Shown here in pieces: positions 19,881 to 24,573 of a stretch of DNA of 43,875 nt. Position numbers and translations under genes: made by a program. Position 1 is the first letter of the stretch, and each line of letters opens with the position of its first letter. A model generated the notes under the pieces. The model made no database searches and was not told where the DNA came from. It was given only the letters and a program-made list of their open reading frames with translations. The stretch comes from Acidobacteriaceae bacterium (GTDB lineage: Bacteria > Acidobacteriota > Terriglobia > Terriglobales > Acidobacteriaceae). The stretch covers positions 1 to 43,875 of the forward strand of contig JANYBT010000029.1 of assembly GCA_025360645.1 (NCBI GenBank), read 5' to 3'.

Positions 19881-21074
19881 CTAGCGTTCCACGGCCATCG
19901 CAACCGCATTGCCTCCGCCCAGGCAAAGCGCGGCGATGCCACGATGCAAGTCGCGCCGAATCATTTCGTGAATCAGCGTCACCAGCACCCGCGCCCCGCT
20001 GGCGCCAATGGGATGTCCAATCGCCACCGCTCCTCCGTTGACGTTGACCTTGTTGGGATCGAGGCCGAGCTCGCGCATCACGCCCAGCGCCTGCACCGAA
20101 AAAGCTTCGTTCAGCTCATACAGCTCCACATCTTCATTCTTCCAGCCAGTCTTCTCCCAGAGGGTGCGGACCGCTCCCACCGGGGCCATCATCACCCACT
20201 TGGGTTCGACCCCCGCCGTAGCTTGCGCAACAATGCGCACCAAAACAGCGGCGCCCAGTTCTTTCGCCCGCGACGTGCTGGTCACCACCACCGCCGCCGC
20301 GCCGTCATTCACCCCGGGAGCGTTGCCCGCAGTCACGGTGCCGTCTTTCTTGAACGCAGGCTTCAGCGCTCGCAGCGCCTCAATCGTCGTGTCTTTCCGC
20401 GGCGACTCGTCATTCGCAAAGAACGTCGTCGGCTGCCCTTTCTTCCTGGCGGGAATTTCCACCGGCACAATCTCCGCCTGAAAGCGGCCCGCTTCTATCG
20501 CCGCCACCGCCTTGCGATGCGATGCGACTGCAAACTCGTCCTGCTCTTCGCGCGTGATGCCATATTTCTCGGCCACATTCTCGCCGGTGACGCCCATGTG
20601 GTAGTCGTTGTAAATGTCCCACAGTCCGTCGTGCACCATCGAGTCCACCACTTTGCCGTCGCCCAGGCGATATCCCTTGCGCGCTTGCGGCAGCAGGTAA
20701 GGTGCGTTGGTCATGGATTCCATGCCGCCCGCCACCACCATCGAACTGTTGCCGGTCTGCACCGCCTGCGCCGCGAGTGCGACCGCTTTCAATCCTGAGC
20801 CGCAAACTTTGTTGATGGTCAGAGCGCCCACTGCGTTGGCGAGTCCGCCGAACAACGCCGCCTGACGCGCGGGATTTTGTCCTAGGCCTGCCGGCAAAAC
20901 GTTCCCCATGATGCATTCGTCCACCAGTGCGGCATCGATGTGGGCGCGCTTCACCGCTTCGCGCACCGCGATCGCGCCGAGCTGCGTAGCACTGAAATCG
21001 GACAGACTGCCTTGAAATTTTCCTACCGGAGTGCGGCAACCGGAAATAATAACTACGTCCTCGAAAGCGGCCAT
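19881..21074 (-). CDS. Acetyl-CoA acetyltransferase (thiolase)
   Basis: It condenses two acetyl-CoA to acetoacetyl-CoA or cleaves 3-ketoacyl-CoA. The 397-residue protein has the full thiolase set: nucleophile Cys91 in [10 protein letters not shown], the NEAF motif, His354 in [14 protein letters not shown] and the second Cys384 in CLGGGNAVA. The start at 21074 is preceded by GGAGCTCACTG. By length and motifs it is a biosynthetic-type (AtoB/PhaA-like) thiolase. The dehydrogenase at 10373 catalyses the next step, but the two are not in one operon. Confidence 0.93.
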
Positions 21075-21295
21075 CAGTGAGCTCCTGAATAAATTAGCGA
21101 CTAACCATTATAGATGTGCAACGCCGGCAAGTGTGCGCAAAGCCGCATGTTTACGCTGCGCAATCGAATCGTGCTGCGCCGAGACGCTGCGGACATTTCG
21201 AAAGTCGGCGAACCAAATCTTTTCTGACGGAGCGAATCCGCTGTTCACCGGAATGGGGAGGCGCTCAAAAACACACTAGCAACGTCATTTTTCTC

Positions 21296-21324
21296 TTGAC
21301 TTCATTTTTCAATAACTCTATATA
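21296..21324 (+). promoter_or_regulatory. Predicted promoter of the micro-gene
   Basis: TTGACT (21296-21301), a 17-bp spacer and TATATA (21319-21324) form a strong housekeeping-like promoter in an unusually A+T-rich stretch. The start would be near 21331. The upstream part of this gap (21075-21295) shows no gene. Confidence 0.65.
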
Positions 21325-21335
21325 TTCAATTAGTT

Positions 21336-21353
21336 GCAACAATGCATCGTTGC
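21336..21353. promoter_or_regulatory. Palindrome at the micro-gene transcription start
   Basis: GCAACAATGCATCGTTGC is an 18-bp dyad broken at one symmetric pair, placed at about +5 to +22. It may be an operator or the first hairpin of the RNA. Its GCAAC/GTTGC arms recall the arms of the 15.2 kb operators, but with a wider centre. Confidence 0.45.
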
Positions 21354-21389
21354 GAATTTCCATGAAGAATGGAAGGGAGAATAGTTCAC

Positions 21390-21440
21390 ATGGCAACCAA
21401 GAAAAAAGCTGCAAAAAAAGCCGCCAAGAAGAAACACTAA
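21390..21440 (+). CDS. 16-residue Lys/Ala-rich micropeptide
   Basis: The ATG at 21390 opens the frame MATKKKAAKKAAKKKH and ends in TAA at 21438-21440. GGAAGGGAGAA lies just upstream as a ribosome site. The frame sits exactly between a good promoter (21296-21324) and a textbook terminator (21467-21496). The peptide resembles one repeat block of histone H1-like/AlgP-type Lys-Ala tails, so nucleic-acid binding is likely by charge. It is far below normal gene-calling size. Alternatively the unit is a small RNA and the frame is incidental. Confidence 0.55.
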   Translation: MATKKKAAKKAAKKKH

Positions 21441-21466
21441 CTTGCGGTTCGGCAAAGTTGAAACCG

Positions 21467-21496
21467 GGGGACGCCAAAAGCGTCCCCTAATTTTTT
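21467..21496 (+). terminator. Intrinsic terminator of the micro-gene
   Basis: GGGGACGC (21467-21474), loop CAAAA, GCGTCCCC (21480-21487), then TAATTTTTT. This is a textbook rho-independent terminator on the plus strand, ending a transcript of about 165 nt. Confidence 0.85.
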
Positions 21497-21591
21497 GGCA
21501 GACGCTTTCTCTACTATTGCGCTGCCGCCGGGAAACTGAACCGGCCGACCCTCCAGGGAAACCGCCGCTGCAATCGGGCAACCACGCTGAG

Positions 21592-24573
21592 CTAGTTCGC
21601 AGCTAGAGACTTGCGGTTGTCTGGCAATCGCGTTTCCGTCTTCGGACACAAGTTGCGATAGGAACAGTAGCCGCAATGGTTCCCGGGCTTGGCCTCGAAG
21701 TTCCCCGCCGCAATCTGCTCCGCCGTCTCTTTCACCATCTCCGCCGCCTTTTTCAAGTCCGCCGGCGACCGCGTGGAAGTCACTATGCTGTTATCTGCGA
21801 TGTTGTGAAGCTGCAAGCCGCTGACCTGGTAACCCCATTTCACCTGTGCCGCCAGCGCATAGAGCGAAAGCTGCAAGGCTTTGTCCGCCTGCTCCTGGTC
21901 CTTCGCTTTGCCGGTCTTGTAGTCCACAATGGTCACCGAGCCGTCGGAATTGCGGTCAATGCGGTCCACGCGCCCAGCCACCTGCACCCCTTCGACCTCG
22001 ATCTGGAAAGATTCTTCGGTGTGCAGCACCGTCGCGGGAGGATGGCTGCGCAGTCCCTCCAGCACCGCACGAAGCTGCTCCTGTCCCTGCTTCTGGTACA
22101 GGTCCTGTTGATAGGAGTCTGACATGCCGGAATTTTCCAAGTCTTTCCGCAGGTCGTCCAGCAGTCGCTCGTCACTGATGTCCCGCCCCAGACGAATGGC
22201 GTCGAAATATGTCTTGAGCACGTGGTGGATGCTACCGCCAAACTGCATCGCTCCTGCCGGTTCCGAGGGAATGTTCAAGACTCTTTGCATCTTGTACTGC
22301 AACGGGCATCTTTGATAACTTTCGATGGCGCTCGCGCTCAGCCGCGGGTTCACCGGCACCGCAATCATGCTGCTCACCCAATCCGCCACCAGCGACCGGG
22401 CGTTGATCATCCGAGCCGGACCGTCGGCTCCGAACAATTCCTGTTGCGGCATAACGGGTGTACGAGATTGCACCACACCCGCCTTGGTGAGCTTGTCGAC
22501 CATCTCGCGAATCATCCCCGTGGGAGTCTTATCTTTCTTCCCCACGCCCTCTTTGCCGGAAATCGATAGCGTGTCCTTCGCGCGAGTCATAGCGACATAA
22601 AAAAGTCGCCGCTCTTCCTGATTGTGGAGCTCCTTGTCGCTCAGCGCCCTCGGCTTGGCCGCCGAACCCAACGTTGCCGGAAATTCAAATAGGCTCTCCT
22701 TGTAGTTGGTGGGAAAAGAACCGGTGGCTGCCCGGAGGATGTACACATGGTCAAACTCCAGCCCCTTCGCGGCATGGGCTGACATCACTCGGACTCCATC
22801 CATCGTCGCCGTCGAAGCCGGGCAGACCGAGCCGCCCGCTTCCACGAAGTAGTCCATGTACTCGACAAACTCCCGGGGCGTACTGGTGCTGGTGATCGCC
22901 TTGTCTTCCCAATCCCAGGCGAACTGCAACAGCGCCTGCGCGGCGGGATGCCCCAGGTCCAGTTGAAACTCCCTGCCGACGATCTCCAAAGCCCGCGCGG
23001 CTTTCCCTCCCAAAGAATTCACTTGCGACCGCACCGATTGCAGTTTGTCGAGCAGCCGCGGGCCATTTGGGATTTTTTGGAGAATCGGATCTAGGCTGGT
23101 CAGGTCGCGCGCAGCCTTCATGGCCGATTGCAACTCTCCCGGATCAATGCCGAATTGCGGAAACGCGGCCACGCGAAACTGGCTGGCGCCGTCGCCGGGA
23201 TTCACCAACGCCAGCAACGCCGCCCACAGATCGCGGACCTCGGGCGTGTCCAGCACGTTCATCCCCTCAATCGAAATCGGAATGTTGTTGGCGAGCAGTT
23301 CGTCCACCACCTCCAGGCGATTGGCATGGCTCCGGTACAGGATGGCAAACTGCTTCCAGACCGGGGGCTTGCGCAGCTTGCGACGCTCCAGGATGTTGGT
23401 CACCACGTCAAAGGCTTCCGTCTTCTTTTCTTTCCACCGCACCAACCCCACTGGCTCGGATTGCAGGCTCTCGCCCTTTTCTACCATCGCCTCTTCGCGG
23501 GCGGACTGCAAAGGCTCGCGCCGGTAGTTGAGGACGGTTTCAGGTCCCGGCTCGCTTGCGGCAAACAGCTGCGGATTCTGGTTGATGATGGCAAAGGCGC
23601 TGGCGAGGATCGGCGACAGCGACCTGCGGTTCTTGCCCAGCACGGTCAAGCCGCTATCCGGAAAGGCCTGCACGAACAGCCGGAACGCTTCGCTGGAGGC
23701 GCCGCGAAAATTGTAGATGGCCTGGTCGGGATCGCCCACCACGAACAGGTTGCGGGTTTTGGCGGCCAGCATTTTCAGGATCTCGATCTGCGCGAAGTTC
23801 ACGTCCTGGAATTCATCCACCAGAATGTAGCGGGCGCGTTGTTGCTCGCGCGCCAGCAACTGGGCGTCGTCCCGCAGCAGGGCATACGCGCCGGTGATCA
23901 TGTGTCCGAAGGTGCCCAGGTTCTCGGCGCGCAGCATATTCTCCACTGTCGAATACACCTGGGAGATTTCGCGGCAGCGGTCCAGCGCTTGCTCGGCAGA
24001 AATTTGTTCCTTCGCTTTGGCCACTCGGGGCGGCAGACACTCGCCCCGCTCCACCCGCTTCACGTACGCGGCATAATCTTCGGCGCTCACCAACTGATCC
24101 TGGCAGCGGCTGATGAACTCCAACAGGTCACACAGGAACTGGCCCACATTGGCGGCGCGGACAAAGTGTTTCAAATTCAGCTCGCGAATGCGACGGCGGA
24201 GAAAAACCCACAAGTCCTTCTCATCGAGCAGACTAAAGTTTTGGCCCGATTCCAGCAGCAGTCGCAGGCAGTAGCTGTGGAAGTTGAACGAGCCGGGCCT
24301 GAGCGACGGATTCTTCAACACTTCCTGCACCCGCTCGGTCATTTCGCCCGCCGCTTTCTCTCCGTAGGTCAGGGCCAGAATCTCATCGGGACGGGCGTAG
24401 CCATTTTCGATCAGGCGGGCGATACGGCGGGCCAGCACCGTGGTCTTGCCGGTGCCCGCCCCGGCGATCACCAGCATGGGACCATCAACATGGTCAATCG
24501 CCTTTTGCTGCTGGGGGTCGGGAATGAACTGGTCGGCAATCAAATGGTGCGGCTGCGAGGTGGGGCGCGACAT
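21592..24573 (-). CDS. UvrD-type helicase fused to a PD-(D/E)XK nuclease with Fe-S cysteines
   Basis: The 993-residue protein combines a superfamily 1A helicase and a RecB-like nuclease. Walker A is VIAGAGTGKTT (about 35-45), Walker B ILVDEFQDVN, motif III GDPDQAIYNFRGA, motif V MSAHAAKGLEFDHVYI, and motif VI VAMTRAKD. The C-terminal nuclease has GRVDRID, IVDYKTGKAKD and LQLSLYA. A Cys in YQRCPLQYK plus the CGYCSYRNLCP cluster would hold a 4Fe-4S, as in AddB/AdnA nucleases. It likely processes double-strand DNA ends for recombination or repair. No partner subunit is adjacent. The ATG at 24573 follows GGAGGATAG-like bases in the leader. Confidence 0.9.
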   Translation of the reverse strand: MSRPTSQPHHLIADQFIPDPQQQKAIDHVDGPMLVIAGAGTGKTTVLARRIARLIENGYARPDEILALTYGEKAAGEMTERVQEVLKNPSLRPGSFNFHSYCLRLLLESGQNFSLLDEKDLWVFLRRRIRELNLKHFVRAANVGQFLCDLLEFISRCQDQLVSAEDYAAYVKRVERGECLPPRVAKAKEQISAEQALDRCREISQVYSTVENMLRAENLGTFGHMITGAYALLRDDAQLLAREQQRARYILVDEFQDVNFAQIEILKMLAAKTRNLFVVGDPDQAIYNFRGASSEAFRLFVQAFPDSGLTVLGKNRRSLSPILASAFAIINQNPQLFAASEPGPETVLNYRREPLQSAREEAMVEKGESLQSEPVGLVRWKEKKTEAFDVVTNILERRKLRKPPVWKQFAILYRSHANRLEVVDELLANNIPISIEGMNVLDTPEVRDLWAALLALVNPGDGASQFRVAAFPQFGIDPGELQSAMKAARDLTSLDPILQKIPNGPRLLDKLQSVRSQVNSLGGKAARALEIVGREFQLDLGHPAAQALLQFAWDWEDKAITSTSTPREFVEYMDYFVEAGGSVCPASTATMDGVRVMSAHAAKGLEFDHVYILRAATGSFPTNYKESLFEFPATLGSAAKPRALSDKELHNQEERRLFYVAMTRAKDTLSISGKEGVGKKDKTPTGMIREMVDKLTKAGVVQSRTPVMPQQELFGADGPARMINARSLVADWVSSMIAVPVNPRLSASAIESYQRCPLQYKMQRVLNIPSEPAGAMQFGGSIHHVLKTYFDAIRLGRDISDERLLDDLRKDLENSGMSDSYQQDLYQKQGQEQLRAVLEGLRSHPPATVLHTEESFQIEVEGVQVAGRVDRIDRNSDGSVTIVDYKTGKAKDQEQADKALQLSLYALAAQVKWGYQVSGLQLHNIADNSIVTSTRSPADLKKAAEMVKETAEQIAAGNFEAKPGNHCGYCSYRNLCPKTETRLPDNRKSLAAN

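Follow-up and report, generated by a model that had tools for sequence, protein, structure and literature searches.

The window analysed here (43,875 nucleotides of contig JANYBT010000029.1 from an Acidobacteriaceae bacterium) contains a very small gene that is, on balance, probably a dual-function RNA: it would encode a disordered, probably nucleic-acid-binding polycation, and its RNA body would have a role of its own. The gene is a discrete unit with a micropeptide frame under coding selection and covarying RNA helices, and its RNA is constrained even in relatives without the Lys/Ala frame. Coding selection, helices, and frame-less orthologues together make a dual-function RNA the simplest account. 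The unit and its two neighbours comprise the following features:

21296..21324, + strand: promoter, TTGACT (21296-21301), 17-nt spacer, TATATA (21319-21324)
21334..21355, + strand: 5' hairpin SL1, where the transcript presumably starts (covariation in 35 units)
21358..21374, + strand: hairpin SL2, immediately 5' of the purine box (covariation in 35 units)
21375..21384, + strand: purine box GGGAGAATAG, ribosome site and conserved element (conservation)
21390..21440, + strand: micro-ORF MATKKKAAKKAAKKKH, from ATG at 21390 to TAA at 21440 (coding selection, 101 distinct ORFs)
21466..21496, + strand: terminator, SL3 GGGGGACGC/GCGTCCCCT (hairpin 21466-21488) plus T6 (21491-21496) (covariation)
19881..21074, - strand: divergent thiolase, neighbour and synteny marker outside the unit (Pfam Thiolase_N, Thiolase_C)
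21592..24573, - strand: convergent UvrD-type helicase/PD-(D/E)XK nuclease, neighbour outside the unit

Anatomy of the unit

The micro-ORF of the window unit specifies a product of 16 residues, nearly pure lysine and alanine. All of the parts described in the first-pass annotation (promoter, dyad, purine-rich site, frame, and terminator) lie where it had placed them. The promoter is present and recurs in relatives, but the description "near-consensus" was too generous, as 9 of 12 positions fit the consensus by manual count. A consensus promoter scan of 20900-21700, which demands a second hexamer ending in T, returned none at its threshold, and a terminator scan of the same interval found one, against a shuffle mean of 1.4. 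Judged on the window sequence alone, the parts are not striking. The window unit is judged real because its parts are conserved across relatives.

The 166-nt RNA folds moderately better than shuffled sequences (z -2.5; 3 of 200 shuffles as good). The SL3 stem with its loop has a single occurrence in its own 3.8 Mb genome, and on this ground SL3 was rejected as a generic terminator sequence. An in-frame ATG upstream in the window (21369, MEGRIVH) was rejected as the start; its frame is not conserved in relatives. Elsewhere, the window has an Hfq gene (769-1149, + strand; Pfam Hfq, 93.4 bits), and Hfq is encoded in all five genomes tested.

Conservation across the Acidobacteriota

In the labels used below, f1 is a family, g31, g34, and g55 are genera, G with a number is a genome, and L with a number is a locus. 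Of 61 genomes searched with a 241-base DNA query, 28 matched, the window's own genome among them, and a Lys/Ala frame is present in 29 of the 30 loci examined (L001 was skipped as a duplicate of L003; L030 is the locus without the frame). An alignment of 35 units from 35 genomes, of which 8 rows were fetched by a pattern demanding the box and ATGGC and 27 by DNA similarity with no such demand, has TTGAC, TATA, AGGGAGAA, and ATG invariant in every row. Within the box, GGGAGAA is invariant and TAG is conserved in at least 90% of rows. The pattern GGGAGAATAGN{0,10}ATGGC fetched 30 loci, 18 of which encode the peptide and 12 of which do not; four further pattern matches (three in g31) precede longer unrelated frames and are not the unit.

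A model built from the 35 aligned units matched 182 of 250 sampled class genomes at E 0.01. It matched 57 f1 genomes, and among the unmatched genomes listed one belongs to f1 (G261); a further 48 unmatched genomes were not itemised, so the f1 misses number at least one. G208 gave a weak model match at a different place, and its unit was found separately. The second-rank model matches (L257-L271, n=15) consist of 3 short Lys/Ala frames, 9 Lys/Ala tails of long proteins, and 3 loci without a Lys/Ala frame. In family f1, model-matched Lys/Ala-rich tails of long proteins end in terminator-like sequence (L258, L260-L265, L267, L270).

A scan of named genomes yielded at least 116 stretches and at least 80 listed loci, all in the Acidobacteriota, with record titles among the listed matches that include Edaphobacter, Granulicella, Terracidiphilus, Acidobacterium, and Ca. 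Sulfotelmatobacter. Among the 80 named loci listed, all have the Lys/Ala frame (two cut by the stretch end), 75 have a TTGAC-N15-20-TATA promoter, and 54 have the GGGGACGC stem after the frame; the scan pattern required the box and first codons and gives no measure of their variation.

The micropeptide and its coding selection

Coding selection was measured on 113 units (78 named loci and the 35 aligned units), which represent 101 distinct ORFs and 75 peptides of 12-30 residues. Across 39 pairs sharing no sequence, 189 of 271 differences are synonymous against 87.1 expected (z 15.1), with 47, 29, and 195 differences at the three codon positions; in frames displaced by one and two bases, z falls to -4.5 and -7.4. 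By this comparison of codons, the Lys/Ala micropeptide is under coding selection. Synonymous change in relatives was the conservation check that the first-pass annotation had proposed, and this result, together with the conserved signals in the 35 units, bears out its claim of a complete independent unit with a selected micropeptide.

After the initial Met, the peptides are composed of K (54%), A (31%), T (7%), P (3%), H (2%), and S (1.5%), with G and V each below 1%. Neither Arg nor an acidic residue occurs in the peptides of the 113 units, and the C-terminal residue is His in 40 and Lys in 73. The Ala2 codon is GCA in 34 of 34 coding units, compared with 67 of 136 for other Ala codons; this invariance might instead reflect a bias towards A-rich codons near the start. 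Searches of Pfam and NCBIfam with forms of 22, 22, and 30 residues scored far below every cut-off, and the 16-mer is too short for such a search.

RNA structure and neighbouring genes

The 18-bp dyad noted in the first-pass annotation is present as a repeat; it behaves as an RNA hairpin (SL1), with covarying arms and a loop that is not conserved among the 35 aligned units, a pattern that gives no support for a DNA operator. A second hairpin (SL2) follows it. SL1 has 7 pairs, 5 of them changed on both sides, and 91.4% of cells paired over the 35 units; SL3 has 9 pairs, 6 changed on both sides, and 98.7% of cells paired. SL2 is the weakest helix (6 pairs, 3 changed on both sides, 70.2% of cells paired) and is weak or absent in some rows. 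For the three helices together, 14 of 22 pairs are changed on both sides against 5.3 when shuffled, a value reached by 0 of 500 shuffles. The helices collapse when slid along the alignment, a comparison in which the tested structure, derived from the window sequence, is favoured over the slid versions. The unit has no Rfam match at the gathering score; the window's one match is an Acido-Lenti-1 RNA elsewhere (RF01687; 13733-13778, - strand; 41.7 bits against 37). Permissive Rfam scans of six and seven loci gave sub-threshold matches only, all off the unit.

Of the 107 units compared, 98 have at least one ORF upstream within the stretch, and in 64 a thiolase-family member is one of the three closest. 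The UvrD-type helicase/nuclease family provides the nearest downstream ORF in 35 of the 107; which family lies downstream changes from genus to genus.

Units without the Lys/Ala frame

Forty regions, for the most part weak or distant hits, were taken from the class-sample model matches; a Lys/Ala frame is present in 34 (longest frames 11-59 residues) and absent from six. All six are from f1 (g31, g55, and G180 of g34). The frame-less units in g31, g55, and one g34 species retain the promoter, hairpins, box, and SL3, with the box altered in g55. A genus-wide model search at E 1e-4 matched 17 of 19 g31 genomes and 18 of 21 g55 genomes. The Lys/Ala peptide is encoded by 0 of these 35 loci, in which no ATG, GTG, or TTG frame exceeds 7 K or A in 10 residues. 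A peptide search of nine frame-less genomes found no copy at E 10, with two coding genomes returning their own, in what is a weak test given the short, biased query. Eight frame-less loci examined have neighbour families in common with coding units, and three of the eight, one in G180 and two in g55, also have the thiolase nearby.

The g55 loci contain GGGAGCGCAGGCAAACGC identically in 18 of 18, have no start codon conserved between the box and SL3, and still contain a leftover Ala/Lys-containing frame, which in 5 of 18 is shifted by one base. Distances from box to SL3 fall in phases 0, 1, and 2 in 6, 8, and 4 g55 loci and in 5, 3, and 9 g31 loci, where the stem start of L296 is unsure. The three helices covary in g55: 6 of 21 pairs are changed on both sides against 3.2 when shuffled (3 of 500 shuffles reach this), and 18 cells are changed on both sides against 5.2 (0 of 500); further pair types number 11, below the 13.0 of the shuffles. 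Mean pairwise identity over the 18 g55 loci is 0.85 in the core, 0.29 upstream, and 0.45 downstream, and over 16 of the 17 g31 loci it is 0.62, 0.35, and 0.32, respectively.

The motif GGCAA is enriched in these RNAs, with 3.11 copies per RNA in g55 (0.56 shuffled), 2.53 in g31 (0.66), and 3 in G180 (0.45). Coding units average 1.6 copies against 0.62 when shuffled, partly a product of ATG-GCA-A, and 5 of 35 have none. In predicted folds of g55 and of the one g31 RNA folded, one GGCAA copy is in a hairpin loop. By eye, g31, g55, and much of g34 have a weak T tract behind SL3.

In 7 of the 17 g31 RNAs, an ATG 22-26 nt after the box start starts a different, Gly/Arg/Lys-rich frame extending into SL3; this basic frame is missing from the other 10. 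The loci in which it replaces the Lys/Ala frame are L252, L254, L255, and L291-L294, and these seven RNAs may still be translated. In a neighbour-protein tree made by a quick method, five g31 and two g55 rows fall on one side of a branch with an SH-aLRT of 98, so g31 and g55 may share a single loss of the Lys/Ala frame. In the thiolase tree, G180 and g55 are joined in 0 of 200 bootstrap trees, and the strongly supported branches still allow one origin.

Related micropeptide genes

A second micropeptide gene is present in the same genome as the window unit (17 residues; L319, contig C130), with nearly the same peptide and another leader and terminator. L319, L320, L321, and L322 form a second gene type, with CAATATCTTGTG upstream, a strong ribosome site, and other terminators. 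In a phylum sample, the model at E 1e-4 matched 58 of 199 genomes, 37 of them outside the class. Regions from 17 of these 37 out-of-class genomes have a candidate K-rich frame of 16-37 residues in 20 of 20 cases, mainly full-length matches chosen with a model that rewards K/A codons. By eye, most of these frames are followed by a GC-rich inverted repeat and a T run. Tandem pairs of K/A(R) micropeptide frames occur in other classes (L341, L351, L353, L357).

Comparison with known systems

SgrS/SgrT of enteric bacteria, like the window unit, combines a small RNA with a small ORF, and its RNA can outlast the ORF. SgrT acts in sugar-phosphate stress. In contrast, the window product would be a Lys/Ala polycation whose RNA may or may not act by base pairing, and the likeness is one of description. 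According to one account of SgrS (PMC4021124), the RNA persists in Yersinia, which has no sgrT ORF, and in E. coli O157:H7, where a point mutation has changed the start codon. VcdRP of Vibrio cholerae is described as a dual-function RNA with a 29-residue small protein (PMC8672173); it likewise resembles the window unit by description and differs in organism and peptide. The cyanobacterial Downstream-peptide RNA/yfr6 is reported as a conserved RNA preceding short ORFs whose changes are synonymous or come in multiples of three, proposed to be a regulatory 5' UTR (PMC2864571), whereas the window unit is independent, has its own terminator, and has an RNA also found without the ORF.

The first-pass annotation also likened the peptide to histone H1-like tails. 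This likeness is one of composition: the histone H1-like families PF07382 (HC2), NF038053, and NF038052 and the Rv3852 family NF050153 are K/A/P-rich, like the peptide. The profiles span 145-201 positions, compared with 12-30 residues for the micropeptides, and the 30-residue form scores far below their cut-offs (in bits, PF07382 15.2 against 40, NF038053 15.3 against 80, NF038052 12.9 against 135, and NF050153 17.8 against 100). Two 22-residue forms have no match to these profiles. No entry in Rfam, Pfam, NCBIfam, or the PDB sequences names the unit, and no description of this gene was found in open-licence papers.

Function of the unit and alternative explanations

From the anatomy of the unit, we infer that it is transcribed, that its product is abundant and binds nucleic acid, and that its RNA acts in trans on a target. 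A housekeeping-type promoter would give rise to a transcript of about 166 nt that ends at the intrinsic terminator, and the 5' stem-loop would likely shield the transcript's 5' end from decay. In most lineages, translation would yield a disordered 12-30-residue Lys/Ala polycation, probably abundant, that probably associates electrostatically with nucleic acid, much as a histone H1 tail would if detached. The RNA body (the 5' hairpins, purine box, GGCAA elements, and SL3) would have a second role, through base pairing or protein binding, and it is proposed that the RNA body survives without the Lys/Ala frame because of this role. By sequence, the 35 aligned units have their own promoter and terminator, as in dual-function small RNAs, and the ORF is under selection. 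Such RNAs often pair with mRNA targets with the help of Hfq, whose gene all five genomes tested carry. Constraint in the frame-less units supports an RNA that acts independently of translation, a point complicated by the basic frame in 7 of 17 g31 RNAs. The RNA role could also have been gained only after frame loss, and a dual role in the coding lineages is what we would extrapolate. Among the alternatives raised in the first-pass annotation, a dual small RNA/peptide gene has gathered the most support, given that g31, g55, and G180 retain the RNA without the Lys/Ala frame.

A gene for the peptide alone is possible, though we doubt it. The RNA would then be an mRNA for a polycationic micropeptide whose hairpins and box serve solely in mRNA stability and initiation, and the frame-less units would be later exaptations, encode another peptide (g31), or be remnants in slow decay. 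Strong coding selection fits this explanation, as do the second gene with nearly the same peptide behind another leader and terminator, the micropeptide frames found behind different leaders in other classes, and the other basic frame of the seven g31 RNAs. The g55 RNAs speak against it: in 18 genomes their core is far more alike than the upstream flank (0.85 against 0.29), and they combine covarying helices with mixed phases and lack a conserved start codon in the interval from box to SL3. An accessory ribosomal micropeptide, that is, a small basic component of the ribosome comparable to eL41 and bTHX, is quite improbable. The unit is conserved, with a very basic product and conserved expression signals, but inside a single family the peptide can be anything between 12 and 30 residues long, g31 and g55 have lost it, and no PDB chain matched at E 10 (a weak test with one 22-residue low-complexity query). 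Hardly credible at all is an attenuator leader peptide whose Lys codons would act as sensors of lysine or Lys-tRNA and govern readthrough into a gene downstream. A short Lys-rich frame does lie directly 5' of a terminator, yet the downstream gene is convergent in the window and its family varies between genera; of the 78 named units listed, 47 have their nearest downstream ORF (at least 120 residues, within 1 kb) on the opposite strand, 26 have it on the same strand, and 5 have none, an orientation that disfavours attenuation.

The dual-function reading can be extended, rather speculatively, to cooperation between the peptide and its host RNA. The peptide would be a minimal RNA chaperone or condenser beside a regulatory RNA with GGCAA active sites, and the coding RNA of g55, and of some g31 members at least, would have become purely regulatory. 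If this were true, an mRNA-to-sRNA transition would have been caught across two genera.

Significance

The unit, a very small gene conserved in a soil family (f1) and matched in nearly every member sampled, has a name in none of the libraries checked. Its coding, recoded or re-framed, and frame-less forms provide a natural series with an RNA that outlived its ORF. How mRNAs turn into regulatory RNAs is thus a question that is testable in genera with cultured members. The gene also raises the question of why a bacterial phylum keeps polycations of 12-30 residues separate from any folded protein.
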